A stretch of 64,000 nucleotides of DNA from Pseudogemmobacter bohemicus (GTDB lineage Bacteria; Pseudomonadota; Alphaproteobacteria; Rhodobacterales; Rhodobacteraceae). This document shows, one piece after another, positions 13,384 through 29,035 of this stretch. The first letter of the stretch is position 1, and the number at the start of each line of letters is the position of its first letter. The notes under the pieces were generated by a model. That model saw nothing but the letters and a program-made list of their open reading frames with translations, was not told where the DNA came from and searched no databases. The position numbers and the translations under genes were made by a program. The stretch spans positions 128,260-192,259 of the forward strand of contig NZ_QNHG01000006.1 in assembly GCF_003290025.1 (NCBI RefSeq). The letters run 5' to 3'.

Positions 13384-13959
13384 ATGTCCAACCTCCTCAC
13401 CCTCGCGCCACAGCGCCCCGCTCGCCTGTCGCCCCGCCTCCGGGACGCGATCCGCCTCAATGTCACCGAAGGTTTGTTAATCACAGACGCCTGCGAGAAG
13501 GCGGGCCTCAGCCGTGCAGCCTGGTATAAGGCCATGAAACGCCCAGCCGTGCAGACCTATACCGAGGAGGTCGCGGCGAAGTTCGTGGCGGGGGTCAGTG
13601 CGAAGAAAGAGCGGGCCAAAGCTATCGCTCTCGAACAGGGCCTCGAACTCATGCTGACATCCAAGAACGAGTCCATCGGCGCGCGTATGGTTGAGTTCTT
13701 CGCCGCCGATGCGAAGGTTTCGCCTGTCTCACTCCATGTCGACGCCCGGCAGCAGAACATGGTTGGCTACGAATACACGCGGCCCCTGAATAATGGTTTT
13801 GCCGATCCGCGCCAGGCGCTGATGGCCGGGGGTGCCAATTGTCCGCCTGCAATACCAGGGCGGATGGGGCTGCTGGGCGCGGCGTTTTCCCTGCAGCGGC
13901 TGATCGCTTTCGGGGTGATTGTGATCCTGGTCGGCGCTGTGTTCAACCTGTTCCGGTGA
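13384..13959 (+). CDS. Phage small-terminase-like helix-turn-helix protein
   Basis: 191 residues from the ATG at 13384. Residues 15-60 (LRDAIRLNVTEGLLITDACE, then AGLSRAAWYKAMKRP) form a helix-turn-helix like that of small terminase subunits or related phage DNA-binding proteins. A helical middle follows. The last 55 residues change character: a Gly/Pro-rich link, then one membrane helix (LIAFGVIVILVGAVFNLF). This tail looks joined from other DNA, since small terminases lack membrane helices. The end overlaps the convergent GMC oxidase gene by 17 bases. Probably a phage remnant; function unclear. Confidence 0.5.
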   Translation: MSNLLTLAPQRPARLSPRLRDAIRLNVTEGLLITDACEKAGLSRAAWYKAMKRPAVQTYTEEVAAKFVAGVSAKKERAKAIALEQGLELMLTSKNESIGARMVEFFAADAKVSPVSLHVDARQQNMVGYEYTRPLNNGFADPRQALMAGGANCPPAIPGRMGLLGAAFSLQRLIAFGVIVILVGAVFNLFR

Positions 13960-15460
13960 CGCCGCGCGCCCAGGTCTCGGCCACGGCCAGCACCGCCGCA
14001 TGGATCGGACCGGCGGTCAGGCCGGGCAGCACCGAGGCATCGACCAGCGCGAGGTTGTCGAGCCCGTTCAGCCGCAGATCGGGGGCGCAGACCGCGCCGG
14101 CATCGCGCCCCATGCGGCAGGTGCCGGATGGGTGATGATGGGTGATTGCGGCTTTTGCGATAAAGGCGTCGATATCGGCATCGGTGGTCAGCGGGCCGGG
14201 CAGGATCTCATGGTCGCGCCATCCGGCCAGTTCGGGCCTGGCGCCGATTTCCCGCGCGGCCTTCAGCGCCTCGCGGAACAGGCGGCGGTCGTGACCGGTC
14301 GAGATATAGCGCGGCTCGATCAGCAGCGGGTCGGAGGGGCAGGGGCCGGTGACGCGGATCTCGCCCCGGCTGGTCGGATGGGTCACGCCGAAGAGGAAAC
14401 TATAGGCGGTGCCCGGGGCAGGGGGGGTGAACAGTTCCGAGGTGATCGGGCCGACGCCGCAGCCGACCACGATCTCGGGCTGGCCGGTGGCGGTGAAGTC
14501 ACCCGCCCGCATATAGGCCATGCTTTCGGAATGCTGCAGGAGAGAGGGGGGCACATGCCGGCGCGCGGCGTAGAGATTGCCGGCGCCAAGCAGATGGTCC
14601 ATCAGGTTCTGCCCCAGCTCCGGCACGTTCAGCCGGCATTGGATACCTGCCGCCGCCAGCACCGCCTCCGGCCCGATGCCCGAGCGCATCAGCAGCGCCG
14701 GGCTCTCCAGCGCGCCGGCGGAGAGGGCGATCCGATCGGCCTCGATCCGGCCCGCCGAGGTCTCCAGCGCGGTCACGCGCGCCCCGGTCAGGGTCAGCCT
14801 GGTGGCGAGAGTGCCGGTCAGGATGGTGAGGTTGGCGCGTGCCCGCACGGCAGGGGTCAGCCAGGCTTCGGCAGTGGTGACACGCTTGCCGTCGCGGATC
14901 ATCAGCGAATTGGGCGTCACGCCGACCATCTCGCCGGTGTTATGGCCGTTGAGGCGTTTCAGCCCCAGCCCGGCGCCGGCTTCGATATAGGCGCGCGCAA
15001 GGGGGGAGACCTCTTCTCCCGGCAGCCAGACCGGCATCGGGCCGCCTTGTCCATGGAGGCCGTCGCCGCCCAGCGTATGGTCTTCGATGGCGAGGAAGGC
15101 GGGCATGAGGCCGTCCCAGGACCATTGGGGATCGCCGGTGGCATGCTCCCAGGCGGCGAAATCCTCGCGGCAGCCGCGGAAATGGCCAAGCGCATGCAGC
15201 AGCGAAGACCCCCCCAGCCCGCGCCCGCGCGCCCAGGACAGAGAGCGCCCGGCAAGCCCCGGTTGCGGCGTGGTGCGGTAATCCCAGTCATAATCGCGAT
15301 GCTGGATCAGGGGCCACATCTGCGGCTTGAGGATATCGGGGTCGGTGGGTTCGCCCCCGGCCTCGATCAGCACCACCTGCCGCGCGGGGTCTTCGGACAA
15401 ACGCGCCGCCAGCAGCGCCCCGGCCGAGCCGCCGCCGATGATCGCAAGATCATAGCGCAT
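13943..15460 (-). CDS. GMC-family flavin oxidoreductase, candidate pyridoxine 4-oxidase
   Basis: 505 residues. An N-terminal FAD-binding motif (DLAIIGGGSAGALLAARLSE) is followed by the GMC signature region (SWARGRGLGGSSLLHA) and a C-terminal active-site block (THHHPSGTCRMG and VDASVLPGLTAGPIHAAV). GMC enzymes oxidise alcohols with FAD. In vitamin B6 degradation a GMC enzyme, pyridoxine 4-oxidase, makes pyridoxal; the presence of a pyridoxamine-pyruvate aminotransferase in the same cluster makes this the favoured guess, but a choline-dehydrogenase-like or other alcohol oxidase is possible. It is the last gene of the leftward operon, 3 bases after the NicX-like gene. Confidence 0.75.
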   Translation of the reverse strand: MRYDLAIIGGGSAGALLAARLSEDPARQVVLIEAGGEPTDPDILKPQMWPLIQHRDYDWDYRTTPQPGLAGRSLSWARGRGLGGSSLLHALGHFRGCREDFAAWEHATGDPQWSWDGLMPAFLAIEDHTLGGDGLHGQGGPMPVWLPGEEVSPLARAYIEAGAGLGLKRLNGHNTGEMVGVTPNSLMIRDGKRVTTAEAWLTPAVRARANLTILTGTLATRLTLTGARVTALETSAGRIEADRIALSAGALESPALLMRSGIGPEAVLAAAGIQCRLNVPELGQNLMDHLLGAGNLYAARRHVPPSLLQHSESMAYMRAGDFTATGQPEIVVGCGVGPITSELFTPPAPGTAYSFLFGVTHPTSRGEIRVTGPCPSDPLLIEPRYISTGHDRRLFREALKAAREIGARPELAGWRDHEILPGPLTTDADIDAFIAKAAITHHHPSGTCRMGRDAGAVCAPDLRLNGLDNLALVDASVLPGLTAGPIHAAVLAVAETWARGVTGTG

Positions 15461-15463
15461 GGC

Positions 15464-16507
15464 TTATTTCTGATCCGCAGGAACGACCACGCCATCCACA
15501 GTCATCGCCTCGCCATCCAGCGAGACCGAGCAATTCCTGAGCGGAATATCCAGGTGACAGGGCGTGTCGCGGTCGCCGCCCGCCTCGGTATTCGGGCCTG
15601 AGGACCAGAGGAAATTCCCCGCGAAGCTGCGGGCATCCATCCCCAGCTGCGATTGCGGGTTGTAAAGGCCCAGCACCGTCCAATGCGCGCGGTTTTCCAG
15701 CCCCCAGCCGACATGGGCCATGGCATAGGCGCGGGGATCGTTGAAGCTTTCCATGAATTTGCGCATGAATTCGGCTTCGGTCCTGCCTTTGATATCGACG
15801 ATCATGCCTTTCTCGATGGTCACGATCACCTGCTCGCGGGCGTAGTGCTTGAAGGGCAGGATGATGTCGCCCTCGTCGATCACGATGGTGCCTTCGGCGC
15901 TGCCCTCATCCGGCCAGCGGGCCGAGAAGCAGGAGGGCCAGTGATCCCAGCGGCCGGGCTCATCGGCCAGACCATATTGCGTCAGCACCGGATATTGCCC
16001 CAGCTTGCAGCGGAAATCGGTGCCCGCAGCCGAGGTCACATGCATCTCTTTCGCCGCGCCGATCTTTTTCGCCGCCGCCAGCACGCGCAGCTTGTCCTCC
16101 GGGCGCGGGATCTGGCGCATCATAATCTCGGGCGGCTCGACGGCCAGCAGCATGCGGGTGCCACCTTTCAGCACCTCTTCCTGTTCCTTCGAGAACAGCA
16201 GTTGCAGCGTGTCGATCACCAGATCGGATGCCTTCAGACAGGCCAGGGCCGCCGAATTCAGCTCCAAAGCGGTCTTGCCGACATAGCCGGATTTATCCGG
16301 CGACAGCGCCTTTTCGCCATTCATCACCGGCAGATTCAGCTCGGTCACCACCGCGCCGAGGTCGGAGGCCGCGAGTTTGGCGATATAGGCGATCTGGCGG
16401 TTGGAATCGTCGCCGGTCAGCACCGTCACCTGCTCGCCCGGTTTCAGCTTGCACATGGAAAGAACCTCTTTCCAGCCCTTGAGGAAATGCGCGTCGCTGA
16501 TGGCCAT
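15464..16507 (-). CDS. nicX: 2,5-dihydroxypyridine 5,6-dioxygenase (NicX-type)
   Basis: 347 residues, aminopeptidase-T-like fold. NicX is an Fe(II) extradiol-type enzyme that opens 2,5-dihydroxypyridine to N-formylmaleamate in nicotinate degradation. The residues here at positions 265 (H in AHVGWG), 318 (H) and 320 (D, in PCHLDIP) coincide with the iron ligands I recall for the Pseudomonas putida enzyme, and the length agrees (about 350). A good ribosome site (AGGAAGG) precedes the ATG at 16507. It sits between a flavin reductase and a GMC oxidase in a ring-degradation operon. The natural substrate here may be a substituted dihydroxypyridine. Confidence 0.82.
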   Translation of the reverse strand: MAISDAHFLKGWKEVLSMCKLKPGEQVTVLTGDDSNRQIAYIAKLAASDLGAVVTELNLPVMNGEKALSPDKSGYVGKTALELNSAALACLKASDLVIDTLQLLFSKEQEEVLKGGTRMLLAVEPPEIMMRQIPRPEDKLRVLAAAKKIGAAKEMHVTSAAGTDFRCKLGQYPVLTQYGLADEPGRWDHWPSCFSARWPDEGSAEGTIVIDEGDIILPFKHYAREQVIVTIEKGMIVDIKGRTEAEFMRKFMESFNDPRAYAMAHVGWGLENRAHWTVLGLYNPQSQLGMDARSFAGNFLWSSGPNTEAGGDRDTPCHLDIPLRNCSVSLDGEAMTVDGVVVPADQK

Positions 16508-16537
16508 GGGATGATCCTTCCTGTCTGGATGCCGCGG

Positions 16538-17053
16538 TCAGAGCGCGGTCGTATGGGCGAGGGTGAAGAAGCTGCGGTTGAAATGCAGCAAGGGGGAGGG
16601 GGCGGAACCGAAGCGGATGGCGCGGACCTCGCCGATAAAGATCGAATGGCTGCCGGTCTCGGTTGCGCTGGCGATTTCGCAATCAAGGTTCACCAGCGCG
16701 CCGTCCAATGCGGGGGCGCCGGTGGCGAGGCTGGTCCAGCCATGCGGTGCGAATTTATCCTCGCCCTGGTCGCCGGTCTGACCGGCGAAACGCAGCGCGG
16801 TCTCGCGCTGGTCATCGGCGAGGATATTGACGCAGAAGCTCCCCGCGCTGGTGATGGCGCGATGGGCCTCGCCGCCCCGGTTGACACAGACCAGCATCGA
16901 GGGCGGTGCGACCGACATTGAACAGACGGCGGTTGCGGTCAGTCCGCGCCGGGCGGGGCCTTCGCCTGCGGTGATGATGTTCACCGTGGCCGCGAGCAGC
17001 CGCATCGCGGCGCGGAAGTCATCGGCCAGGGGGTTTGTGGGGCTGTGGATCAT
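16538..17053 (-). CDS. Flavin reductase of a two-component monooxygenase (HpaC-like)
   Basis: 171 residues with the flavin reductase domain: RLLAATVNIITAG, GLTATAVCSMSVAPPSMLVC, SGSFCVNILADDQRE, and the C-terminal GSHSIFIGEV with LLHFNRSF. Family members use NAD(P)H to make free reduced flavin for a partner oxygenase. The partner here is presumably the HpaB-type protein at 20236-21723. The start overlaps the upstream amidase stop by 4 bases. Confidence 0.9.
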   Translation of the reverse strand: MIHSPTNPLADDFRAAMRLLAATVNIITAGEGPARRGLTATAVCSMSVAPPSMLVCVNRGGEAHRAITSAGSFCVNILADDQRETALRFAGQTGDQGEDKFAPHGWTSLATGAPALDGALVNLDCEIASATETGSHSIFIGEVRAIRFGSAPSPLLHFNRSFFTLAHTTAL

Positions 17054-18348
17054 GGTCTCGCCTTTTGCAGCTGTTCCAGCCAGAGGGCGGCAGAGGCCAG
17101 CCGGTGATCTGCGGCCCGCGCACCCACCAGCTGCACGCCGATCGGCAGGCCTTTGGCGCCGGTGGCGCCGGGCAGGTTGATCAGCGGCACCTGCAAGACG
17201 CTCCAGAGCCGGTTGAAGATCGGATCGCCGGTCGCCATGCCCTCGGGGGCCTCGCCGGGGGCGGCGAGGGTGAGCACGGCGTCGAAGCGCGACAGCAGAT
17301 CGTCCATCTGGCCCCGGATCGCAGGCAGCTGTTCAAGGGCGGCGCGGTAGCGCGGTTCCGTGACGCGGCGCTGGTCTTCCAGCATGGCGCGGGTGACGGG
17401 GCTGAGGCCGGACCAGTGGTCGCGGATTTCCGGGGCGAGGGAATTGGTGACCTCCCAGCCCATCACTGCCTCATGCAGATCGAAAATACCGTCATACCAG
17501 GCGGGGGGCTCAAGGATCGTGACTTCGGCTCCGGCCTGTCCGGCCCGGGCGGCAAGGCTGAAAACAGTCTCTGTACTTGCGGAATCAGCCTTTTCGAGGC
17601 GGGTTCCAGGCAGCACGGCGAGGCGCGGGCGGGCAGGGGGGGCGAGTTGCGCCAGGGCCTCATATCCCGACAGCGCCGCCGCCGCATGGGCCGCGTCTTC
17701 GATGCCGCGCGCAAGGATCCCCAGCGTGTCGAGGCTGTGGCAGAGCACCTTGATGCCCACGGTATTGATCAGCCCGAAAGAGGGTTTCAGGGCAGTGACG
17801 CCGCAGAAACTCGCCGGGCGGATCACCGAGCCGGAGGTCTGCGTGCCGTAAGCCAGGGGCACATGACCGGCGGCGACTGCGGCGCAGGAGCCTGATGACG
17901 AACCGCCCGGCGTATGGGCCGGATTACGCGGGTTCCGGGTCTTGTTCGGGCTGGCCATCGCGAGCTCGGTCGAGACGGTCTTGCCAAGGATCAACCCGTC
18001 TGCGGCGCGGGTCAGCGAGACCGCCGCCGCATCCCAGGGCGGCTGGAAGCCGTCATAGATCCTGGTGCCATAGCCCGTGGGTATGTCTCTGGTGTCGATC
18101 ACATCCTTGACGCCGACCGGCACCCCTGCCAGCGGCCCTTTCGCGCCCTGCCGGTCGAGCGCATCGGCGGATGCCCGGGCCTGACCCGGGTCGAGATGCT
18201 GCCAGGCCATGACCGGGCCGTCAGTCGCGGCGATATGCTCCAGATGTGCCTCGGTGACCTGGCGGGCAGTGAGCTCACCCGAAGCGACACAGGCAGCGAT
18301 CTCACGGGCGGAAAGGGCAAGGATAGTCTCTGTTTTCATCCGTATCAC
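17050..18348 (-). CDS. Amidase-signature family hydrolase
   Basis: 432 residues from a GTG at 18348 that overlaps the preceding stop; an ATG at 18339 is the alternative start. Amidase-signature features: VGVKDVIDT (catalytic Lys), PGGSSSGSCAAVAAG (cis-Ser) and TQTSGSVIRPASFCG (nucleophile Ser). These enzymes hydrolyse amides. In this operon a plausible task is removal of formyl or amide groups from the ring-opening product of the NicX-type enzyme, which in known pathways needs a deformylase and an amidase from other families; that role is inference. Confidence 0.85.
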   Translation of the reverse strand: MIRMKTETILALSAREIAACVASGELTARQVTEAHLEHIAATDGPVMAWQHLDPGQARASADALDRQGAKGPLAGVPVGVKDVIDTRDIPTGYGTRIYDGFQPPWDAAAVSLTRAADGLILGKTVSTELAMASPNKTRNPRNPAHTPGGSSSGSCAAVAAGHVPLAYGTQTSGSVIRPASFCGVTALKPSFGLINTVGIKVLCHSLDTLGILARGIEDAAHAAAALSGYEALAQLAPPARPRLAVLPGTRLEKADSASTETVFSLAARAGQAGAEVTILEPPAWYDGIFDLHEAVMGWEVTNSLAPEIRDHWSGLSPVTRAMLEDQRRVTEPRYRAALEQLPAIRGQMDDLLSRFDAVLTLAAPGEAPEGMATGDPIFNRLWSVLQVPLINLPGATGAKGLPIGVQLVGARAADHRLASAALWLEQLQKARP

Positions 18349-19778
18349 CCGAAGATCGCCGGGCGGCGATCCGCCCAGGGCCAGGTTTTTTCGATATCAT
18401 GGGCGAGTTGCAGCAGCGTGGCGTCCTCGCCAAATCCGGCGCCGATATGGATACCGATGGGCAGGCCGGAGGCGCTTGTCCCGAAGGGGACAGACATGGC
18501 CGGGCAGCCCGAGGCGTTGAAGACGGCGGTGAACGGCGAATGCGCCCAGAACTGGTCGTAGAAGGCATCAAGCGTCTGGCCGGTGCCGGCAAGTTTGCCA
18601 AGCGGCGGCGCGGGTTCGGCTGCCGCCGGGGTCAGCACGGCATCATAGCGCGAGAAGAAGCGGCCAAGCGCGCGGGCGGTTCCGTGCAGCGTCTGGACGG
18701 CCGCAAGGTAGGTGGTGGCGGGCAGCGCCAGCGCCTCGCGCACCCATTCGCGGTTAACCTCTTCCAGCTGCGCGAGGCGGGGCGAATGCCGGTCGCCGCC
18801 GGTCACGCCAAGCGCCACATTGGTGCCCACGACCTGGCGCCAGGCGGTCTTCAGCGCCGCCGCATCATAGCCCATATCGCTGATCGGAATGACGGTATGA
18901 TCCAGATCCCGCAGCGCCCGCACCGCCGATTCTGTGACGCGGATCATCTCGGGGTCGATGGTCTCGCCGAGGGGGGCCCGGGTCAGGACTGCGATTTTCA
19001 GGTATTCGCAGGGCCTGTCGAGTGCTGCAAGATAGCCGGGTTTTGCCGGCGACGCCCAGGGGTCACCGATATCCGGGCCACCGCTGATGTCCAGCATCGC
19101 CGCGCTGTCGCGGACCGACCAGGTTACCGCATGGGGGGTGGACATGCCGCCGATGGCCTCGGCCGCGACCGGCCCGACCGGGTTCACAAGGCGCGAGGGT
19201 TTGAACCCGAACAGCCCGCAATGGCTGGCGGGGAGGCGGGTCGAGCCTGCGCCGTCTGATGAGTTCGCGAGCGGCACCATGCCCGAGGCCACCGCAGCGG
19301 TCGATCCGCCCGACGATCCGCCGGCGGTTCGGGTCACATCCCAGGGATTGCGGGTCGGTCCGAAGGCCTCGGGCTCCGAGGTGAAAGACAGCGCGAATTC
19401 CGGCGTGTTCGACTTGCCGAGGATCACCATTCCTGCCGCCTTGTAGCGCGCGGTGATGGTGGAATCGCGCTGGCTGACCACACCGCGCAACAGTTCCGAG
19501 CCGGAGGACAAGAGCATCCCTTCGGCCTCGAACCCGGTATTTTTCAACAGCATCGGCACCCCCGCAAGGGGGCTGAAGGGCAGATAGCCGTCGGGCTTCA
19601 TGTAACCCCGGACCTGTTCACGGGCGAGGTCGAAATGCTCATGCACCACCGCGTTCAACTGCGGGTTCAGCCGCTCTATCCGCTCAATCGCGGCCTCAAG
19701 CACTTCCGAAGGCGATATCTCGAATTCGTCGAGCAGCTTCGTGATGGCGATCCCGTCGAGTTTTGCCAGCTCCTGCAT
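18345..19778 (-). CDS. Amidase-signature family hydrolase
   Basis: 477 residues. Catalytic Lys in VPMLLKNTG, cis-Ser in GGSSGGSTAAVASG and nucleophile Ser in SDGAGSTRLPASHCG. Only moderately similar to the neighbouring amidase at 17050-18348, so the two probably act on different substrates rather than being a recent duplication. It begins 4 bases after the SnoaL-like gene and overlaps the next amidase by 4 bases. Likely works after ring opening; substrate unknown. Confidence 0.87.
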   Translation of the reverse strand: MQELAKLDGIAITKLLDEFEISPSEVLEAAIERIERLNPQLNAVVHEHFDLAREQVRGYMKPDGYLPFSPLAGVPMLLKNTGFEAEGMLLSSGSELLRGVVSQRDSTITARYKAAGMVILGKSNTPEFALSFTSEPEAFGPTRNPWDVTRTAGGSSGGSTAAVASGMVPLANSSDGAGSTRLPASHCGLFGFKPSRLVNPVGPVAAEAIGGMSTPHAVTWSVRDSAAMLDISGGPDIGDPWASPAKPGYLAALDRPCEYLKIAVLTRAPLGETIDPEMIRVTESAVRALRDLDHTVIPISDMGYDAAALKTAWRQVVGTNVALGVTGGDRHSPRLAQLEEVNREWVREALALPATTYLAAVQTLHGTARALGRFFSRYDAVLTPAAAEPAPPLGKLAGTGQTLDAFYDQFWAHSPFTAVFNASGCPAMSVPFGTSASGLPIGIHIGAGFGEDATLLQLAHDIEKTWPWADRRPAIFG

Positions 19779-19782
19779 CGTC

Positions 19783-20166
19783 TCAGCCCATCTGTGCTTT
19801 GAAAAGGTCGAGATCCCAGAGGTCTTTGGTGACCATCAGCGCCCCGTCCCGGATTTCAAACAGATGCAGCCCGTCCAGCGCAATGGGGCGCTTTTGCCCG
19901 TCTTTGCCGGTGAAGGTGCCGGTCATGTGATAGGGCACCGCAACATGACCGGCGGCGCGGATATAGCCCCGGCGGGACCAGGCGACATCGGGGAGCATGC
20001 GCCAGAAGCCCTCCAGCCCCTGGGCCAGCGCCTCGCGGCCCTGACGGGATTTCGCCATGGCGATCTCGTCATGGCGGCCGTCAGGGGCGTAAAGCGCGGC
20101 GGCGCCCTGGGCATCGCGTGCCGCATAGGCCGCGTAGAAACGGTCGATCAGCTCCTGGTGGTGCAT
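19783..20166 (-). CDS. SnoaL/NTF2-like small protein
   Basis: 127 residues of NTF2/SnoaL pattern: N-terminal helices (ELIDRFYAAYAARDAQGAAA LYAPD-type), the strand-rich middle GYIRAAGHVAVPYHMTGTF and the end LHLFEIRDGALMVTKDLWD. Proteins of this fold act as isomerases, hydratases or small-ligand binders in catabolic and polyketide pathways. It lies between the monooxygenase and the amidases in one operon, so a step on a pathway intermediate is likely; the reaction cannot be told. Confidence 0.75.
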   Translation of the reverse strand: MHHQELIDRFYAAYAARDAQGAAALYAPDGRHDEIAMAKSRQGREALAQGLEGFWRMLPDVAWSRRGYIRAAGHVAVPYHMTGTFTGKDGQKRPIALDGLHLFEIRDGALMVTKDLWDLDLFKAQMG

Positions 20167-21794: not shown

Positions 21795-22202
21795 TCAGCC
21801 TTTGGCCTTTTCATCGCGCATCTGGCGGATCACCTCGGTCGCGCAGCGCATCGCATCCAGCGCCGCCGGCACGCCGCAATAGATCGCGGCCTGCAAGATC
21901 ACCTCGACGATCTCCTCTTCGGTGATGCCGTTATTGATGGCGCCGCGCACATGGATCTTCACCTCATGCGGCCGGTTCAGCGCGATCAGCATGGCGAGGT
22001 TCAGGAAGGAACGGGTCTTGCGCTCCAGCCCCGGGCGGGTCCAGATTTCGCCCCAGCACCATTCGGTTACGAGTTTCTGCAAAGGCGCGGTCAGGTCATC
22101 CGCATTGGCGAGGGAGGGTGCGACATAGGCGTCGCCCAGAACCTCACGGCGGACCTGCAGCCCTTTTTGAAACTGCTCACCCTCGAATTCGGGACGGGTC
22201 AT
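21795..22202 (-). CDS. Carboxymuconolactone-decarboxylase-family protein (PcaC-like)
   Basis: 135 residues with the CMD pattern (RKTRSFLNLAMLIALNRPHE, HVRGAINNGITEEEIVEVIL, YCGVPAALDAMR). The CxxC of the AhpD subgroup is absent, so it is PcaC-like rather than a peroxidase partner. PcaC decarboxylates gamma-carboxymuconolactone; here it may decarboxylate or isomerise a ring-cleavage product, unproven. First gene of the leftward operon; its promoter region is shared with the divergent lactonase gene. Confidence 0.85.
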   Translation of the reverse strand: MTRPEFEGEQFQKGLQVRREVLGDAYVAPSLANADDLTAPLQKLVTEWCWGEIWTRPGLERKTRSFLNLAMLIALNRPHEVKIHVRGAINNGITEEEIVEVILQAAIYCGVPAALDAMRCATEVIRQMRDEKAKG

Positions 22203-22274: not shown

Positions 22275-22333
22275 AGGTTAGACATGGCGCGCTTGACCTG
22301 TCAACAGATTGTATGACAGGATTACGGTCATAC
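22275..22333. promoter_or_regulatory. Divergent promoter and operator of the pyridine/B6 cluster
   Basis: GTATGAC (22311-22317) and GTCATAC (22327-22333) form a perfect inverted repeat with a 9-base spacer. Just beside it, on the minus strand, lies a consensus -35 TTGACA (22304-22299), 18-base spacer and TAACCT (22280-22275), directed at the leftward operon. The palindrome is therefore immediately upstream of that -35 and between both operons. Related half-sites recur at 27436-27460 and 29170-29189. The cluster's GntR protein is the inferred binder. Confidence 0.6.
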
Positions 22334-22393
22334 TGATAGACAAAGCGCCGCTGCCCGGAAATGAGGCAGCCGTAAAGGGGAGGCGAAGCCGGG

Positions 22394-23242
22394 ATGCGAG
22401 AGGAGCGGGATCACCCTGCCGATGCTGCGGTTTTCGAGCTTTTCGCGCTGCGTTACGCCGAGCATTCCGGCCGCCATCAGGGCGAGAATTTCGTCGATCC
22501 GGCTGACCCGCATGAGGCCGGGTCGAACCTTGATTACTTCATCTGGCTGGCGCGGCGGGGGGCTGAAACCCTGGTGATCGACACCGGTTTCGGGCCTGAT
22601 GCCGCGCGCCGGCGCGGGCGCCGTCTGTTCAGAACCGCCCGCGAGGCGCTGGCGCTGGTGGGGGTTGATTCGCATCAGGTGGAGACGGTGATCCTCACCC
22701 ATCTTCACTATGACCATGCCGGCAGCCTGACCGATTTTCCGCGCGCGCAGTTCCATCTGCAAGAGGCCGAGGCCGCCCATGCCACCGGGCCTTGCATGTG
22801 CGACCCGGCGGCGCGGGGCGTGTTCGATGTCGAGAATATCGTCGAGTACATCCGCAGCCTTTACGCCGGGCGCATCACTTTTCATCAGGGCGATCACGAT
22901 CTGGGCAATGGCATCAGATTGCATGAAATCCCGGGCCACAGCGCGGGATTGCAGGCGGTCTCTGTGCCCACCGCGCGGGGGCGGGTGCTGCTCGCATCAG
23001 ATGCCACCCATCTTTACGCCAATCTGGCGCGGCATGCGCCTTTTCCGATCCTCTGGGATGAGGCGCGGCTGCGCCAGGGATTCGCGCGGCTGGAGGCGCT
23101 GGCACCCTCCGCCGATCATATCATCCCGGGCCATGACCCGCTGGTGATGCAGGCCTATCCCGCCGTGTCAGAGCCGCTTTCGGGCATCGCAGTGCGGCTG
23201 GATACGGCGCCGCTTCTGTCCTTCGCCGAGCTCAGCCGATGA
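22394..23242 (+). CDS. Metallo-beta-lactamase-fold lactonase, candidate 4-pyridoxolactonase
   Basis: 282 residues with the metal motif THLHYDH (about residue 101), then distal ligands in EIPGHSAG and LLASDATH. The pattern is that of N-acyl-homoserine-lactone lactonases and 4-pyridoxolactonase. In Mesorhizobium the 4-pyridoxolactonase, pyridoxamine-pyruvate aminotransferase and pyridoxal dehydrogenase (an SDR) genes are neighbours; here the same three kinds of gene are in one operon, favouring 4-pyridoxolactonase. A ribosome site (GGGGAGG) precedes the ATG. Its stop overlaps the SDR start by 4 bases. Confidence 0.75.
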   Translation: MREERDHPADAAVFELFALRYAEHSGRHQGENFVDPADPHEAGSNLDYFIWLARRGAETLVIDTGFGPDAARRRGRRLFRTAREALALVGVDSHQVETVILTHLHYDHAGSLTDFPRAQFHLQEAEAAHATGPCMCDPAARGVFDVENIVEYIRSLYAGRITFHQGDHDLGNGIRLHEIPGHSAGLQAVSVPTARGRVLLASDATHLYANLARHAPFPILWDEARLRQGFARLEALAPSADHIIPGHDPLVMQAYPAVSEPLSGIAVRLDTAPLLSFAELSR

Positions 23243-23991
23243 GCCGGGGCGTGCTGATCACCGGCGCGGCGCTTGGCCTTGGGCTGGGTCTGGCGAAGGC
23301 TTTCGCCGAAGCCGGCGACCGGGTGTTTCTGTCGGATATTTCTCCCGCCGTTTCCGATGCGGCGGCGGGTCTTGCGGCGGGCAGCCATTGTGCCGATCTC
23401 TCTGCCCCGGGCGCGGCTGCGGATCTGGCGGCGCGGGCGGCGGATCATCTGTGCGGTGTCGATATCCTGATCAACAATGCGGTGATCCGGCGCATGGCCG
23501 AGGTTCCCGACCTGCCCGATGCCGATTGGGACCGCGCAATGGAGGTGAACCTTTCCGCGCCCTTCCGCCTGATCAAAGCCTGCCTGCCGGGGATGAAGGC
23601 GAAAGGCTGGGGGCGGATCATCAATATGGGCTCGGTCTATAGTCTGATCGCGCTGGCAGGCCGGGCGGATTACGTCACCACCAAACATGCGATCACCGGG
23701 CTGACGCGGACGGTGGCGCTGGAACTGGCCGGGACCGCGATCACCTGCAATGCGATATGCCCCGGGCTGATGGCGACCGATTCGGCGCTGGCCCGCATCG
23801 CGGCGCTGGCTGAGACGCGGGGCATCAGCGCAGCCGAGGCGGAGCGGGAATTCCTTTCGACCCGTCAGCCGGGGGGTAAATTCATCCCGATGGAGACGGT
23901 GACGGCGCTGGCTTTGTTCCTGTGCGGAGAGACCAGCGCGGGGCTGAACGGGGCGGCGATCCCGGTGGATAATGGCTGGTCCTTTGCCTGA
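23239..23991 (+). CDS. Short-chain dehydrogenase, candidate pyridoxal 4-dehydrogenase
   Basis: 250 residues, classical SDR: cofactor motif TGAALGLGLG, NNA-type motif INNAVIRR, catalytic Ser in NMGSVYS and YxxxK in YVTTKHA (YVTTK). The C-terminal half resembles 3-hydroxybutyrate-dehydrogenase-like SDRs. In a B6 route this would oxidise pyridoxal (hemiacetal) to 4-pyridoxolactone for the adjacent lactonase. The overall similarity I recall to the Mesorhizobium enzyme is only family-level, so another hydroxy substrate is possible. Confidence 0.78.
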   Translation: MSRGVLITGAALGLGLGLAKAFAEAGDRVFLSDISPAVSDAAAGLAAGSHCADLSAPGAAADLAARAADHLCGVDILINNAVIRRMAEVPDLPDADWDRAMEVNLSAPFRLIKACLPGMKAKGWGRIINMGSVYSLIALAGRADYVTTKHAITGLTRTVALELAGTAITCNAICPGLMATDSALARIAALAETRGISAAEAEREFLSTRQPGGKFIPMETVTALALFLCGETSAGLNGAAIPVDNGWSFA

Positions 23992-24018
23992 GGGCGGGGC
24001 CGCAAGCAGGAGAGTGTG

Positions 24019-24867
24019 ATGGTGGCCGCGGGCGCGAAGCTGGTGGTCAATGACCGCGATGCGGGCGCGGTGGCCGCGCTGGTCGCGAAAGGGGCCGGGG
24101 ATGCGGGATCGCTGAAGGCGCTTTGTGCCCGCGCAGAGACGGTTTTCCTCTCGCTGCCGACGCCCGAAGTGGTGCTGGCGGTCGGGCGCGAGATTGCCGC
24201 GCATCCCGGGCGGGTGCAGCGGGTGGTGGATCTGTCGACCACCGGCCCCAAGGTCGAGATGGATCTGGCCGAGGTGCTGGCCGGCGCCGGCATCGCGCTG
24301 ATCGACAGCCCGGTTTCGGGCGGGGTTGCGGGGGCAAAGAAGGGGACGCTCGCGCTGATGGCCGCCGGACCCTCGCCGCATTTCGAAACGGTCGAGCCGC
24401 AGCTGCTGGCTTTGGGCAAGGTGATCCGGGTCGCGGCAGAGCCGGGCAAGGCCCAGGTGATGAAGCTGATCAACAATATCTGCTCGGCGGCCTCGCTCGC
24501 GATCACATCCGAGGCGATGGTGATGGGCGCGAAGGCCGGGCTTGATGCCGATGTGATGATCGAGGTTCTGAATGCGGGCTCGGGCCGCACCTCGGCCAGT
24601 GTCGACAAGATCCCGCGTTTCGTGCTGCCGCGCGGCTTTGATTTCGGCTTCGCGATTGCACTGTCTCTGAAAGACATCCGGCTGTGCCTGGAAGAGGCCG
24701 AACGTCTTGGCTGTCAGATGCTGGTCGGCAATGCGGTCAGGACGCTGTTCTCCATCACCAAAGCCCAGTTCGGCCCCGATGCCGATATGACCGAGATCAT
24801 CCGCCCGCTGGAGGTCTGGGCCGGGGCCGAGCTGCGCGGCAAGGCGGCAGAAGGGGCTGGCGGCTGA
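24019..24867 (+). CDS. 3-hydroxyisobutyrate-dehydrogenase-like protein lacking its N-terminal nucleotide motif
   Basis: 282 residues from the ATG at 24019, chosen because AGGAG lies 6 bases upstream (the frame also has a GTG at 24016). Beta-hydroxyacid dehydrogenase features are clear: LVVNDRD, VFLSLPTPEVV, the substrate signature region IDSPVSGGVAGAKKG, and Lys in KLINNICSAAS. However the usual first 15-20 residues with the Gly-rich GxGxxG Rossmann motif are missing, and no in-frame sequence upstream supplies them. Either the enzyme is inactive or it has an unusual cofactor use. It overlaps the PrpD-type gene by one base. Confidence 0.78.
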   Translation: MVAAGAKLVVNDRDAGAVAALVAKGAGDAGSLKALCARAETVFLSLPTPEVVLAVGREIAAHPGRVQRVVDLSTTGPKVEMDLAEVLAGAGIALIDSPVSGGVAGAKKGTLALMAAGPSPHFETVEPQLLALGKVIRVAAEPGKAQVMKLINNICSAASLAITSEAMVMGAKAGLDADVMIEVLNAGSGRTSASVDKIPRFVLPRGFDFGFAIALSLKDIRLCLEEAERLGCQMLVGNAVRTLFSITKAQFGPDADMTEIIRPLEVWAGAELRGKAAEGAGG

Positions 24868-26216
24868 TGGGCCTCAGCCGCCGGATCGCCGGTTTTGCCG
24901 CCGATCCCGGCCCGCTGCCGGACAAGGTGCGGGCGGCGGGGCGGCGGGCGTTTCTGAACATGGTTGGCTGTGCGATCGGCGGCGCAGGGGAGGCGGCGAT
25001 TGACCGCCTTGTGGCGCTGCTGCCTGCGTTTTCCGGCCCCGCCACGACCAGTCTGATCGGGCGGGGCGCGCGCGCCGATATGCTCTGGGCCGCCTGCATC
25101 AACGCGGCGGCGGCGAATATCTTCGACTATGACGACACCCATATCCCGACCGTGATCCACCCCGCCGCCCCGGTCGGCCCGGCGGTGCTGGCGCTGGCCG
25201 AGAGCCTTGCGGCGGAGGGGAGGCCGGTTCCGGGCACGGCGCTGATCCGCGCCTTTGTCACCGGGATGGAGGTGACCTGCCGCCTTGGTCTCGCGCTGCA
25301 TCCCGTGCATTACACGCGTGGCTGGCATATCACCTCGACCTGCGGCACCTTCGGGGCGGCGCTGGCGGCGGGGCAGATCCTGGGTCTGACCGAGGCGCAG
25401 ATGGTCGACGCCATGGGGCATGCGCTGGCGCAGAATGCCGGCTCGGTCGAGACGCTGGGAACGATGTCGAAAAGCCTTTCGGTCGGGCAGGCGGCCCGGG
25501 CCGGGCTGATGGGGGCGCTGCTGGCACAAGACGGTTTTACCGGCCCGGCGGCGCCGCTGGAAGGGGAGCGGGGCTTCCTTGCGCTGCATTCCGATGCGCC
25601 GGATCTGGCGGCGTTTGACGGTCTGGGCCAGCGGTGGGAGGTTTTGCAGAACACTTTCAAACCTTACCCCTGCGGAGTGGTTCTGAACCCGGTGATCGAG
25701 GCCTGCCTTGCGCTGCATGGCGAGGGGATCGACGCAGACCGGATCGCGCGGGTCACGCTGACCGGGCATCCTTTGCTCAGACAGCGTACCGACCGGCCGG
25801 GGGTTGAGACGGGGCGGCTCGCCCAGGTCTCGGCGCAGCATGCGGTGGCGGTGAGCCTCTTGCGCGGCGAGGCGGGGCTGGCGGCCTTCTCGGATGCCGC
25901 AGTGGCCGGGCCGCTGCTGCGCGCATTCGGCTCCAGGCTGGCTTTTTGTGACGATCCGGGCTTCGCGCTGGAGGCGGCGGAGGTCACGCTGGACCTGACA
26001 GATGGCCGCCGCATCACCCGCCGGGTCGAGGCGGCAAAGGGCGGGCTTGCCCATCCGATGACAGAGGCCGATCTTGCGGCGAAACTGCGCGGCCAGATCC
26101 GCCATAACGGCGCCAGGCTGGACGCCGATGCCCTGATCCGGGCGCTGGAAACGATTGAGGACCGCGACAACGCGGCCGACTTCCTCGCTTTGACGCGAGG
26201 GGCAACAGGAGAGTGA
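24867..26216 (+). CDS. MmgE/PrpD-family protein
   Basis: 449 residues from the ATG at 24867, coupled to the previous stop (TGATG). MmgE/PrpD pattern: RRAFLNMVGCAIGG, NAAAANIFDYDDTHIP, HPAAPVGPAVLALAE, TRGWHITSTCGTFGAAL, KPYPCGVVLNPVIEA. The family contains 2-methylcitrate dehydratase and cis-aconitate decarboxylase. A dehydratase or decarboxylase of a ring-cleavage dicarboxylate (maleate- or succinate-like) would fit the operon. The exact reaction cannot be told. Confidence 0.87.
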   Translation: MGLSRRIAGFAADPGPLPDKVRAAGRRAFLNMVGCAIGGAGEAAIDRLVALLPAFSGPATTSLIGRGARADMLWAACINAAAANIFDYDDTHIPTVIHPAAPVGPAVLALAESLAAEGRPVPGTALIRAFVTGMEVTCRLGLALHPVHYTRGWHITSTCGTFGAALAAGQILGLTEAQMVDAMGHALAQNAGSVETLGTMSKSLSVGQAARAGLMGALLAQDGFTGPAAPLEGERGFLALHSDAPDLAAFDGLGQRWEVLQNTFKPYPCGVVLNPVIEACLALHGEGIDADRIARVTLTGHPLLRQRTDRPGVETGRLAQVSAQHAVAVSLLRGEAGLAAFSDAAVAGPLLRAFGSRLAFCDDPGFALEAAEVTLDLTDGRRITRRVEAAKGGLAHPMTEADLAAKLRGQIRHNGARLDADALIRALETIEDRDNAADFLALTRGATGE

Positions 26217-26217
26217 G

Positions 26218-27417
26218 ATGACCAGACCGATTGCGCCTCCGGTGATGACGCTGACCACCGGCCCCGTCGATGCCTATCCCGAGGTGCTGCGTGCCCTGTC
26301 GCGGCCCGTCCTTTACGATTACGACCCGGCTTTCCTCGAATTCTATGAATCGGTGAATGCGAAAGTGCAGCGCGCCTTCCATACCGACACGCCGCCGGTG
26401 ATCCTGCAGGGAGAGCCGGTGCTGGGGCTGGAGGCCGCCGCCGCCTCGGTCATCGCGAAAGGCGATGTGGTGCTGAACCTGGTCTCGGGTGTCTATGGCA
26501 AGGGTTTCGGTTATTGGGCGGCACGCTATGCCGGCGAACTGATCGAGCTGGAAGTGCCCTATAATGAGGTGCTGACGGCGGCGGCGGTGGCAGAGGCGCT
26601 GAAGGCCCGCCCCGATGTGGCGGTGGTATCGCTCTGCCACCATGACACGCCTTCGGGCACACTGAACCCGGTTGATGAGATCGGGGCGGCGGTGCGCGCA
26701 GCGGGCAAGATCTTCATCGTCGATTCGGTTTCGGCCTTTGGCGGGGTGAAGGTGCTGCCCGAGGATTGCCAGGCGGATATTTTTGTCACCGGCCCGAATA
26801 AATGCCTCGGCTGCCCGCCGGGCCTGTCGCTTTTGCATGTGTCGGAACGGGGCTGGGCGAAGATCGCGGCCAACAAGGACGCGCCGAAGGATTCGATCCT
26901 TTCGATTGCCGACTGGCGGCGCGCGCATCTGGCGGGGCAGGGCTTCCCCTTCACGCCCTCGGTTTCTGAGATCAACGCCCTGGACGCGGCGCTTGATGTC
27001 TACCTCACCGAAGGCGAGGAGGCCGTCTGGGCCCGCCATGCCCTGACCGCCAAAGCCTGCCGCGCCGGAATTCTGGCCGCCGGAATGCAGCTTTGGGCGG
27101 CCCGCGAAGAGATCGCCTCGCCGACCTGCACCGCCGTGAAGACGCCGGACGGGATCGACGAACCGGCTCTGCGCGCGCTGATCCGGGCGCGGTATGGGGT
27201 GATGCTGTCCTCGGGGCGTGGCGAGACGCTGGGTCGCCTGACCCGCATCGGCCATATGGGGCCTACCGCGAAACCGACCTATGCCATGGTGGCGGTGGCC
27301 GCGATGGCGGGGGGGATGCAGGCGATGGGTGTCAGGGGCATCGACCCCGGCGCCGGGGTTGCAGCGGCGCTGGCGGTGATCGACGCGGCGGCGGATAAGG
27401 CGGCGGCCAAGGTTTGA
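26218..27417 (+). CDS. ppat: Pyridoxamine-pyruvate aminotransferase
   Basis: 399 residues, fold-type I aminotransferase. The sequence closely follows the Mesorhizobium enzyme as I remember it: TTGPVDAYPEVLR, VLYDYDPAF, LQGEPVLGLEAAAAS, GVYGKGFGYWA, CHHDTPSGT, VTGPNKCLG with the reactive Lys at 195, and SGRGETLGRLTRIGHMGP with Arg 332 and 341 nine residues apart, as in the two substrate-binding Arg of the characterised enzyme. It converts pyridoxamine plus pyruvate to pyridoxal plus alanine, and uses no bound PLP cofactor because its substrate takes that place. It ends the rightward operon, one base after the PrpD-type gene. Confidence 0.87.
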   Translation: MTRPIAPPVMTLTTGPVDAYPEVLRALSRPVLYDYDPAFLEFYESVNAKVQRAFHTDTPPVILQGEPVLGLEAAAASVIAKGDVVLNLVSGVYGKGFGYWAARYAGELIELEVPYNEVLTAAAVAEALKARPDVAVVSLCHHDTPSGTLNPVDEIGAAVRAAGKIFIVDSVSAFGGVKVLPEDCQADIFVTGPNKCLGCPPGLSLLHVSERGWAKIAANKDAPKDSILSIADWRRAHLAGQGFPFTPSVSEINALDAALDVYLTEGEEAVWARHALTAKACRAGILAAGMQLWAAREEIASPTCTAVKTPDGIDEPALRALIRARYGVMLSSGRGETLGRLTRIGHMGPTAKPTYAMVAVAAMAGGMQAMGVRGIDPGAGVAAALAVIDAAADKAAAKV

Positions 27418-27435
27418 GCCTTTCGCCAGGGCCGT

Positions 27436-27460
27436 TTGTCGTATAGTAACATTGTCATAT
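27436..27460 (+). promoter_or_regulatory. Candidate GntR operator before the regulator gene
   Basis: TTGTCGTAT (27436-27444) and TTGTCATAT (27452-27460) form a direct repeat at a 16-base offset. They match the half-site T-R-T-C-R-T-A-Y seen at 22311-22333 and 29170-29189. A hairpin TGCCGC/GCGGCA follows at about 27464-27485. The site lies about 50 bases before the GntR gene, so autoregulation is likely (inference). Confidence 0.45.
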
Positions 27461-27508
27461 TGGCTGCCGCGCATCATTATGCGGCAACCCCGATCATAGT
27501 GGTATGGA

Positions 27509-28216
27509 ATGAACGGCAAAGCCCTCCCGCTGGAGTTCAGAGTGACCAAGGCCGCTGCTCCGGTGCGCCATTCGGTGACCGAGAGCATCCGCAACTCGAT
27601 CGCGCTTGGCTATTTCACCGCCGGGCAGCGCATTACCGAGCGCGACCTTTGCGAGATGACCGGCGTGTCCCGCACCGCCGTGCGCGAGGCGCTGCGCCAG
27701 CTGGAAAGCGAAGGGCTGGTGCAGGTCGTGCCGCATCGCGGGCCGATTGTCGCCACGCTGACCCCCGAACAGGCCGAGGGCATCTACCAGGTCCGGATCG
27801 AGCTGGAGGGTCTGGCCTGCGAGCTTTTCACCCGCAACGCCACCGATGCGGATATCGCCGCGCTGAAAGCGTCGTTCGAGGGGCTTAAGGGCATCGGCAG
27901 CATGACCGACCCGCTGGAGCGGCTGACCGCCAAGAACGCCTTTTACGAGAGCCTGATCTTCGGCGCCCATAATGAGGCGCTTGGCCATACGCTTTCCTCG
28001 CTGAATGCCCGCGTGATGGTCTTGCGCGCGACCTCGCTGGCGGCACCGGGCCGCACGGCGGAAAGCCTGCAAGAGCTGGAAGAACTGGTCGATCACCTCT
28101 CTGCCCGGCGTGGCAAAGAGGCGAGAAAGCTCGCCGCCCGCCATGTGATGAATGCGGGCAAGGTGGCGATCGAGATCCTGAAAAAGCGCCTCGCCCAGGA
28201 AGCGGCTGAAGGCTGA
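27509..28216 (+). CDS. GntR-family (FadR/FCD subfamily) regulator of the cluster
   Basis: 235 residues. The N-terminal winged helix (about 15-75) contains RITERDLCEMTGVSRTAVRE and ALRQLESEGLVQVVPHRG. A C-terminal FCD ligand domain (about 90-220) follows, with EQAEGIYQVRIELEGLACEL and HNEALGHTLSSLNARV. FCD regulators usually respond to small acids made in the pathway they control. It stands right after the rightward operon and before the convergent SDR, with similar operator half-sites in three intergenic regions around it; it is the likely repressor or sensor of the B6/pyridine genes. Confidence 0.85.
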   Translation: MNGKALPLEFRVTKAAAPVRHSVTESIRNSIALGYFTAGQRITERDLCEMTGVSRTAVREALRQLESEGLVQVVPHRGPIVATLTPEQAEGIYQVRIELEGLACELFTRNATDADIAALKASFEGLKGIGSMTDPLERLTAKNAFYESLIFGAHNEALGHTLSSLNARVMVLRATSLAAPGRTAESLQELEELVDHLSARRGKEARKLAARHVMNAGKVAIEILKKRLAQEAAEG

Positions 28217-28241
28217 AGGCGCCCCGGGGGTTTCGGGGGGG

Positions 28242-28258
28242 GGGGGCTGATCGCCCCC
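28242..28258. terminator. Hairpin between convergent genes
   Basis: GGGGGC (28242-28247) pairs with GCCCCC (28253-28258) across loop TGATC. It lies between the stops of the GntR gene and the opposing SDR gene, so it could serve both strands, but it has no T run. It begins inside a 12-base G tract (28235-28246). Confidence 0.4.
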
Positions 28259-28267
28259 TGTCGGGCG

Positions 28268-29035
28268 TCAGATTCCGGGCGTTGCGCCGCCATCGACATT
28301 GATCACCGTGCCATGGACATAGCTTGCCGCCGGGCTGCACAGGAATCGCAGCACATTGGTGACCTCGTCGGGCTGGCCGTAAGCGGCGATGCCGTGCTCG
28401 ATCCGCATCTCCTCCTGGGCCCCGGCAAAGCTGATGCCACGCTCCGCCGCGCGGGTCTCGATGCGGCGGGCAAGGCGGTCGGTGACGATATGGCCGGGGC
28501 AGAGCGTGTTGATGCGGATGCCCGCGCCTTGCGCGCGTTTCGAGATCGCCTTGGTGAAATTGATCAGCGCGGAATTGACCGGGCCGCCAATGGTGAAATC
28601 GGGCTCGGGCGTATGGGCGCCGACGCCGGAAATATTGACGATCACGCCTTTCGAGGCCTCCAGAGCCTGCCATGCGGCGCGGCAGAACCGCACGCTGGCG
28701 TGGAATTTCAGCGCGAATCCCTCAATGAAATCCTCGTCAGACAGCGCGAGGAAATCGCCGCGTCTGGTGGCGCCGGCATTGTTCACCAGCGCATCGATTC
28801 GCCCGAGCCGGGCCAGCGTCGCGCCGACCACCCCGGCCGCCGCGCCGGGCTGCGAGAGATCGGCTGCGGTGATGACCACCTGCGGCGCGCCGGCAGCCAG
28901 CGCCTCTTGCGCGGTTTCCTCAAGCGCCGCCGCATCGCGCGCCGCCAGCGAAAGCGCGAATCCGTCTTTCGCAAGGCCGATGGCAAAGGCTTTCCCGAGG
29001 CCCCGGCTCGCTCCGGTCACGATGGCGCTGCGCAT
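28268..29035 (-). CDS. Short-chain dehydrogenase/reductase
   Basis: 255 residues from the ATG at 29035, chosen because the Rossmann strand (AIVTGASRGLGKAFA) starts directly after it and a GGGAAAAG site precedes it; the frame itself is open to 29113. NNAG motif (VNNAGATRRG) and catalytic Ser (ISGVGAH) are present. The usual Tyr of YxxxK appears replaced: the corresponding place reads GGPVNSALINFTKAISK, so the active site is non-standard. C-terminal CPGHIVTDRL and a VDGG-type end are normal. It faces away from the BMP-transporter gene and shares candidate GntR half-sites (29170-29189). Substrate unknown. Confidence 0.78.
   Translation of the reverse strand: MRSAIVTGASRGLGKAFAIGLAKDGFALSLAARDAAALEETAQEALAAGAPQVVITAADLSQPGAAAGVVGATLARLGRIDALVNNAGATRRGDFLALSDEDFIEGFALKFHASVRFCRAAWQALEASKGVIVNISGVGAHTPEPDFTIGGPVNSALINFTKAISKRAQGAGIRINTLCPGHIVTDRLARRIETRAAERGISFAGAQEEMRIEHGIAAYGQPDEVTNVLRFLCSPAASYVHGTVINVDGGATPGI

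Follow-up and report, generated by a model that had tools for sequence, protein, structure and literature searches.

A candidate vitamin B6 degradation locus with putative HpaB- and NicX-type ring-opening genes in Pseudogemmobacter bohemicus

How might a bacterium open the pyridine ring of vitamin B6 when none of the enzymes of the known routes is identified after pyridoxal? The question is raised by a stretch of 64,000 nucleotides of Pseudogemmobacter bohemicus (contig NZ_QNHG01000006.1, positions 128,260 to 192,259), hereafter the window, which is part of one contig of a 5.6 Mb genome and in which genes for vitamin B6 conversion share two divergent operons with an HpaB-type hydroxylase and a NicX-like dioxygenase. 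Comparison with related loci suggests that this locus probably encodes a vitamin B6 degradation pathway with a ring-opening half unlike both described routes. An excerpt of PMC3538738 refers to two characterised vitamin B6 catabolic routes; no HpaB/NicX-type B6 route was found in the open-access literature, subscription journals lying outside that scope.

The leftward operon runs from 22202 to 13943 and encodes, in this order, a PcaC-like protein, the HpaB-type hydroxylase, a SnoaL-like protein, the amidases AmdA and AmdB, a flavin reductase, the NicX-like dioxygenase and pyridoxine 4-oxidase (PNOX). The rightward operon encodes an MBL-fold hydrolase, the dehydrogenase SDR1, a 3-hydroxyisobutyrate-dehydrogenase-like (HIBDH-like) protein, an MmgE/PrpD-family protein and pyridoxamine–pyruvate aminotransferase (PPAT), and is followed by a GntR gene, by SDR2 on the opposite strand and by an ABC transporter. 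All genes named in an earlier account of this DNA, the sequence-only reading, proved to be open reading frames with good coding scores where they had been placed, and the families assigned (HpaB/HpaC-type, NicX-type, two amidases, PcaC-like, SnoaL-like, MmgE/PrpD) agree with Pfam, NCBIfam and PDB matches. That list had omitted the HIBDH-like gene (24016..24867) and the GntR gene (27509..28216), and the B6-type transporter adjoins just outside the interval it covered. Genes for plasmid replication, of the RepB and RepC types, are present at 6822–9225, and the locus is therefore on a plasmid or chromid.

The entry substrate is indicated by close homology. PNOX (13943..15460, minus strand), a GMC flavoprotein, scores 735 bits against the pyridoxine 4-oxidase structure 4ha6 over residues 4–499 (496 residues), the next family member reaching 251 bits, and is by sequence a close relative of a pyridoxine 4-oxidase of known structure. 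PPAT (26218..27417, plus strand) lies over the cut-off of model NF046070 (641.8 versus 600 bits) and matches 2z9u at 564.5 bits, a PDB entry that is named aspartate aminotransferase and that we take to be the PPAT of Mesorhizobium loti. Both enzymes, which had already been proposed as B6 enzymes and gain support here, are catabolic rather than salvage enzymes and belong to route I of Pseudomonas MA-1 and M. loti, where they feed pyridoxal. Four transporter proteins at 29821–34603, all on the plus strand, exceed the cut-offs of models that NCBIfam labels "putative B6 ABC transporter": the substrate-binding protein of the BMP/PnrA family (29821..30912; NF047927, 474.1 bits, cut-off 400), the ATP-binding protein (30998..32587; NF047930, 728.5 bits, cut-off 670), permease 2 (32584..33669; NF047929, 517.2 bits, cut-off 400) and permease 1 (33632..34603; NF047928, 485 bits, cut-off 465). 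Canonical upper-route clusters found in this work carry homologues of this transporter at 53–68%.

A comparison of neighbourhoods in other genomes, which had been proposed along with the original gene assignments, showed that the module recurs in 38 further loci, nearly all in Alphaproteobacteria. The NicX-like protein was scanned against one genome per species, yielding 40 loci, of which two, from Amycolatopsis, are outgroups at about 40% identity and the other 38 are at 63–97%; because codon-score gene calling missed genes (L028–L032, L045), presence was counted by tblastn with thresholds that we set ourselves. Among the 38 relatives, HpaB is found at the locus in 37, AmdB in 36, AmdA and SnoaL in 35 each and the flavin reductase in 33, and a closely related locus lies in Paracoccus sp. 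IB05 (NicX-like protein 97%, other proteins 82–97% identical). The module occurs in three gene arrangements. Type A, the window-like one, comprises 20 loci from Paracoccus, Ochrobactrum, environmental Brucella, Ciceribacter/Rhizobium, a Mesorhizobium metagenome-assembled genome (MAG) and others. Type B comprises 9 loci from Neorhizobium, Rhizobium, Roseibium, Labrenzia and two MAGs, with the transporter divergent from HpaB and an AbrB-type membrane protein in 7 of the 9. In type C (9 loci, Ancylobacter and Chthonobacter), the transporter is accompanied by several genes near NicX: a PcaC-like gene (9/9), a PcaD-like gene (called in 8/9), an enoyl-CoA-hydratase-like gene (9/9) and a HIBDH-like match of 37–41% that exceeds 60 bits in 9/9 loci and passes the set thresholds in 2/9; these last three families were identified from L050 alone. 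In 10 type B/C loci, the B6 transporter and HpaB flank a 148-residue protein with no Pfam or NCBIfam match (e.g. L038, 5862–6308).

The B6 entry genes travel with the module. The transporter adjoins it in 18/18 type B/C loci, in a gene order differing from that of the window, and PPAT and PNOX adjoin transporter and module in six extended type B/C regions (L098–L102, L104). For type A the transporter check covered loci that were extended or seen whole: the transporter is present in the window, L103, L105 and a plasmid of R. daejeonense (L109), and two transporter genes are present in L029. Whole genomes were compared in a set of 39 NicX-type genomes (G000, G007 and G012, plus the host genomes of all loci L018–L055 except L027 and L033, which makes 36 of 38). 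All 39 have a PPAT match, 38 over cut-off and one partial at 483 bits (G012), and all 39 have a PNOX match at 53–100% identity, with one in-frame stop within the read-through frame in three (G102, G125, G128). By comparison, among 385 genomes of the class 8 exceed the PPAT cut-off, the window genome being one of them (best 5 candidates per genome scored). Because the module recurs in 38 other loci and in three gene orders, the gene association is more than chance; the common core is the B6 transporter, PPAT, PNOX, HpaB, flavin reductase, SnoaL, two amidases and the NicX-like protein. The PNOX and PPAT scores, the adjoining B6-type transporter and the 39/39 linkage together strengthen the view that vitamin B6 is the entry substrate of one pathway.

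After pyridoxal, the known routes were sought by means of NCBIfam models. In the window, the MBL-fold lactonase-like hydrolase (22394..23242, plus strand; PF00753, HxHxDH motif) reaches 45 bits against the 4-pyridoxolactonase model NF047925 (cut-off 325), and SDR1 (23239..23991, plus strand), which is 3-hydroxybutyrate-dehydrogenase-like in the NCBIfam search, reaches 119.3 bits against the pyridoxal 4-dehydrogenase model NF047923 (cut-off 325). For SDR2 (28268..29035, minus strand; PF13561), whose position beside the GntR gene is conserved in L103 and L105, the best 25 of the 94 matches listed do not include the latter model, and the window genome gives no pyridoxal 4-dehydrogenase match at E ≤ 1e-60 among the best 49 of 67 candidates. 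Pyridoxal 4-dehydrogenase is over cut-off in 0/39 NicX-type genomes versus 3/3 controls (best ≤49 candidates per genome), and FHMPC dehydrogenase in 0/39 versus 3/3 controls (best ≤41 candidates per genome), one of these controls barely passing at 500.1 bits with a cut-off of 500. For 4-pyridoxolactonase the count is 0/39 distinct genomes, the control protein scoring 490.8 bits; 40 genome entries entered that test, G001 and G100 apparently being the same genome, as their match coordinates are identical. Canonical route I by way of distant homologues was thus ruled out for the three enzymes with NCBIfam models, and a further candidate B6 model, NF047926, turned out to be an unrelated integrase. 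Given 0/39 for both pyridoxal 4-dehydrogenase and 4-pyridoxolactonase, the MBL and SDR proteins are therefore not the known B6 enzymes, and their earlier description as 4-pyridoxolactonase-like and as part of the known upper route is not supported. The term "hybrid" used in the sequence-only reading is too weak, no known-route enzyme being identified after pyridoxal (MHPCO and AAMS hydrolase lay outside the genome-wide search).

What, then, could open the ring? The NicX-like protein (15464..16507, minus strand) has no Pfam or NCBIfam match at the thresholds used, is 51.5% identical to P. putida NicX and scores 390 bits against 7cn3; its fold, like that of the HpaB-type protein, is predicted from identity to relatives of known structure. 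According to an excerpt of PMC7910607, the iron ligands of NicX are His265, Ser302, His318 and Asp320, Glu177 binds N1 and O1 of 2,5-dihydroxypyridine, and replacement of His105 by Phe keeps activity. All four ligands and His189 are kept in 39/39 sequences of the B6 clade, position 105 is Phe in 39/39, and position 177 is Gln in 39/39, compared with Glu in 7/7 reference NicX proteins. In the tree, a branch with support 99/97 separates the B6 clade from the neighbouring reference NicX proteins. Within it, the Paracoccus sequences are nested in an otherwise Rhizobiaceae group (support 92/96), which suggests lateral transfer. The neighbourhood likewise differs from that of nicotinate degradation. 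Four of the six reference NicX loci that were opened encode an FAD monooxygenase, a racemase, an alpha/beta hydrolase and an isochorismatase-type protein, the other two being a variant context and an unannotated record; no nicC/D/E/F-type neighbour genes are present in the window cluster.

The HpaB-type hydroxylase (20236..21723, minus strand; PF11794/PF03241) stays below the HpaB equivalog cut-offs, with 208.7 versus 480.2 bits for TIGR02309 and 136.6 versus 885.2 bits for TIGR02310. Its best PDB relatives are 4-nitrophenol and chlorophenol 4-monooxygenases, which act para; HpaB itself is an ortho-hydroxylase. An HxH pair falls at the histidine of the WVH motif of 7dbw, HMMER aligning its first and MAFFT its second histidine there, and the first is present in 35/35 sequences. 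A base of the HadA type is described in an excerpt of PMC8342789, and the HxH pair may be its counterpart. The flavin reductase (16538..17053, minus strand; HpaC/RutF type, PF01613 at 135.7 bits), which reaches the cut-off of none of the 8 NCBIfam models listed, would supply reduced flavin to the hydroxylase. On a Peribacillus plasmid, an HpaB relative (48%) is found with a NicX-like protein, an alpha/beta hydrolase, isochorismatases and racemases, which are the NicD, NicF and NicE families of nicotinate clusters; because of this company, the HpaB branch is suggested to make a 2,5-dihydroxypyridine by para hydroxylation of a 3-hydroxypyridine.

This plasmid is one of three, from Thioclava, Terrarubrum and Peribacillus (L106, L107, L108), with HpaB at 63, 59 and 48% and NicX-like proteins at 40, 38 and 47%, the latter annotated as leucyl aminopeptidase and having isochorismatase-type genes nearby. 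No PPAT match at E ≤ 1e-100 was present on these plasmids, their chromosomes not being part of the check; their NicX-like proteins are not members of the branch uniting the B6 clade with reference NicX, and the clusters are probably routes for other 3-hydroxypyridines. An HpaB match in Aminobacter (40%) has no NicX-like gene annotated in 25 kb, and a further one lies on an unannotated Neorhizobium plasmid.

The two amidase-signature enzymes differ in their nearest solved structures. For AmdA (18345..19778, minus strand; PF01425) it is that of 6-aminohexanoate cyclic dimer hydrolase (240 bits), a secondary-amide hydrolase, and for AmdB (17050..18348, minus strand; PF01425) that of malonamidase E2 (253 bits), which acts on a dicarboxylic monoamide; by analogy, the pair would suit hydrolysis of an N-acetyl amide and then of a maleamate-type acid. 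The motifs GGSSGG and D-x-(G/A)-G-S-x-R are present in 30/30 AmdA relatives. The signature Lys of AmdA was read by eye, the regular expression having matched 0/30, as were the Lys and both Ser of AmdB, for which the Ser-position patterns matched 0/29. The small SnoaL/NTF2-like protein encoded next to AmdA (19783..20166, minus strand; PF12680 at 61.5 bits) could be an isomerase or a hydrolase.

Taken in order, these families suggest the following pathway. The B6-type transporter would import the vitamin, and PNOX and PPAT would convert pyridoxine and pyridoxamine, respectively, to pyridoxal, steps for which close homology speaks. The HpaB-type enzyme with the flavin reductase may then hydroxylate pyridoxal, or a derivative oxidised at C4, at C6, para to the 3-hydroxyl group, as family chemistry, order and comparison between loci indicate, which would give a 2,5-dihydroxypyridine-type ring. 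Cleavage between C2 and C3 by the NicX-like Fe(II) dioxygenase would lead to the N-acetyl amide of a substituted maleamic acid, N-acetyl rather than N-formyl because C2 carries the methyl group. AmdA would remove acetate, derived from C2 and the methyl group, and AmdB would subsequently release ammonia. We propose more tentatively, and would not be surprised to see it revised, that the HpaB-type enzyme acts directly on pyridoxal, bypassing 4-pyridoxolactone and 4-pyridoxate, with the NicX-family enzyme opening 6-hydroxypyridoxal to an N-acetyl maleamate from which the two amidases release acetate and ammonia. A 2,5-dihydroxypyridine-type intermediate of B6 ring opening, one of the two possibilities raised in the sequence-only reading, is the best-fitting model. 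The scheme resembles the nicotinate route NicC–NicX–NicD–NicF–NicE in having a NicX-family dioxygenase and in the sequence of hydroxylation, cleavage to an N-acyl amide and two hydrolyses. It differs in the exchange of Glu177 and in that HpaB/flavin reductase and two amidase-signature enzymes replace the single-component FAD monooxygenase, alpha/beta hydrolase, isochorismatase-type amidase and Asp/Glu-racemase-type enzyme. In contrast to route I, in which pyridoxal 4-dehydrogenase, 4-pyridoxolactonase and FHMPC dehydrogenase act, ring opening here is proposed to be due to HpaB, the NicX-like enzyme and two amidases.

The C6 acid left over would carry a hydroxymethyl group and might close to a furanone. 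It could conceivably be finished by lineage-specific enzymes, namely a PcaC-like decarboxylase, an MBL or PcaD-like lactonase, dehydrogenases, and PrpD or an enoyl-CoA-hydratase-like enzyme, with an end point perhaps near formylsuccinate or succinate semialdehyde. The PcaC-like protein of the carboxymuconolactone-decarboxylase family (CMD; 21795..22202, minus strand; PF02627) is just under the TIGR02425 PcaC cut-off (151.5 versus 155.7 bits). It is accompanied by the MBL protein in type A and by a PcaD-like hydrolase (159 bits, cut-off 256) in type C, and this pairing hints that the lower pathway may pass a butenolide stage. In the 9 type B genomes, the best matches to the PcaC-like protein are at 34–42% and away from the locus in 8, and G125 has none. 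The parallel with PcaC and PcaD of the beta-ketoadipate pathway, with a PcaC-like gene in the window and a PcaD-like hydrolase gene beside a PcaC-like one in type C, is limited, as both proteins are under their equivalog cut-offs and no protocatechuate genes are among those identified in the cluster. The MmgE/PrpD-family dehydratase/hydratase-like protein (24867..26216, plus strand; PF03972 and PF19305) has its likely start at 24867 by comparison with L018. None of the dehydrogenases is common to the three locus types.

The two operons appear to be controlled together. Between them, at 22311–22333, lies a perfect inverted repeat, GTATGAC-N9-GTCATAC, which recurs, either exactly or with a single mismatch, in every locus with an extractable divergent region except L036 (18 of 19, the window included). 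It is the only site with two or fewer mismatches in the window, and five mononucleotide shuffles of the window contained no site with 0 or 1 mismatch. This putative operator lends support to the shared divergent control assumed earlier, and the GntR/FCD protein (27509..28216, plus strand; PF00392/PF07729) is the likely controller of the locus. A second operator before the GntR gene or the transporter was rejected, there being none with two or fewer mismatches in the window. None occurs at that level in the type B/C loci L038–L055 either, and among the extended type B/C regions only L101 has an operator-like site, with two mismatches.

Could the same genes be explained differently? A B6 pathway with ortho hydroxylation at C4, loss of the formyl or carboxyl group and opening of 3,4-dihydroxypyridine by the NicX-like enzyme would agree with the ortho specificity of HpaB itself and with the lack of a dedicated gene for pyridoxal oxidation common to the three locus types. 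The substitution of Gln for Glu177 in 39/39 sequences also implies a differing substrate edge, judging from the excerpt of PMC7910607. We nevertheless consider the ortho variant unlikely. An imide/amide pair would suit the presence of two amidases, the HpaB relatives closest among solved structures, the nitrophenol and chlorophenol 4-monooxygenases, are para-acting, and Peribacillus couples the same HpaB branch to NicD/NicE/NicF-like families. The HxH pair points the same way, its first His being invariant (35/35) at the position that would correspond to the HadA-type base in the excerpt of PMC8342789.

Two further explanations would leave the ring-opening genes outside B6 degradation or without a role. 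The NicX/HpaB operon might degrade another natural pyridine, the B6 genes being neighbours or a salvage add-on, as the sequence-only reading had allowed; the three plasmid clusters in which HpaB and NicX-like genes occur without a PPAT match would be in keeping with this. We now regard it as improbable, given that the NicX operon itself ends with PNOX, that PPAT lies in the divergent operon with a common operator, that both have matches in 39/39 NicX-type genomes, and that the B6-type transporter adjoins in 18/18 type B/C loci as well as in the type A loci seen; the NicX-like proteins of the three plasmids belong, besides, outside the branch of the B6 clade and reference NicX. Even less credible, and very improbable in our view, is an ordinary route I of the Mesorhizobium type whose remaining genes lie at other places in the genome. 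Both PNOX and PPAT do belong to route I, and MHPCO and AAMS hydrolase were outside the genome-wide searches, yet the three canonical enzymes are over cut-off in 0/39 genomes while positive controls were detected, and the conserved module would be left without a role.

The preferred reading, degradation of vitamin B6 through C6 hydroxylation and NicX-type cleavage, has a number of observations to contend with. C6 hydroxylation and C2–C3 cleavage are proposed by family analogy, no enzyme beyond PPAT and PNOX having a characterised close relative that acts on B6, and the B6 label of the transporter is an NCBI annotation worded as putative. The whole-genome scores refer to the best candidates per genome (≤49 for pyridoxal 4-dehydrogenase, ≤41 for FHMPC dehydrogenase, 5 for PPAT in the class); the cluster proteins scanned gave no FAD_binding_3 or alpha/beta-hydrolase match, MHPCO and AAMS hydrolase not having been searched genome-wide. 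A PDB search with a NicC-type protein lists MHPCO at about 95 bits. PPAT presence does not imply the module: of the 8 class genomes with PPAT over cut-off, only the window genome has the HpaB, whose matches in the 385 are close in the window genome only and about 40% in 4 others, none a PPAT genome. One of four PPAT plasmids (Haematobacter) is without an annotated NicX-type gene in a 25 kb region. Parts of the module are also missing from individual loci. The flavin reductase is not found at the locus in 5/38 relatives, AmdA and AmdB are not at their usual place in two Neorhizobium loci (L038, L043), and the locus of B. grignonensis (L029) retains PPAT, PNOX and NicX and is without HpaB, SnoaL, AmdA, HIBDH, SDR1, MBL and CMD. 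The lower half is not one conserved pathway, because the searches detected neither MBL, SDR1 nor PrpD at loci of types B and C, and type B loci gave no CMD or HIBDH either. In the window, the HIBDH-like gene (24016..24867, plus strand; PF14833/PF03446), whose profile match starts at position 18, is without about 19 N-terminal residues including the Rossmann GxGxxG that are present in L018, which appears to be an in-frame deletion or an assembly fault.

Two observations touch the incomplete loci: the one of the two Neorhizobium loci that was extended (L102) has divergent AmdA and AmdB copies (47 and 42%) farther along, and in L029 the stretch from PrpD to AmdB seems lost at 8393–9400.

If the proposed reading is correct, a third B6 route would give substrates to HpaB- and NicX-family proteins that currently bear the names 4-hydroxyphenylacetate hydroxylase and 2,5-dihydroxypyridine dioxygenase (e.g. 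in R. daejeonense) in about three dozen species, nearly all Alphaproteobacteria, and what the putative B6 transporter feeds in them would be accounted for. The acetyl-amide-forming cleavage of a pyridine would be a new reaction.

Other B6 clusters were met during the searches. Those of G260 (L077/L086), G166 (L078/L087) and G435 (L079) hold PNOX, PPAT, pyridoxal 4-dehydrogenase, lactonase, transporter homologues and FHMPC dehydrogenase, together with GST and RidA, and in G260 and G166 also an LVIVD protein and a cupin, which at a guess from its family and size could be a gentisate-dioxygenase-like ring cleaver. A divergent HpaB (26%) adjoins the B6 cluster of G166. These clusters are possibly yet another ring-opening variant.

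Downstream of the transporter, the window contains two further groups of genes. The first, at 35444–45248, is probably a cluster of its own for an amine or sugar conjugate; it encodes two glycosyltransferases of the macrolide type, a substrate-binding protein similar to PotF/PotD, two EutQ-like cupins and an aldehyde dehydrogenase. The row at 45387–52606, with an amidase (46386–47783), transporter-like reading frames and a cytosine deaminase (51299–52606, 745 bits), is a possible nucleobase-use operon.

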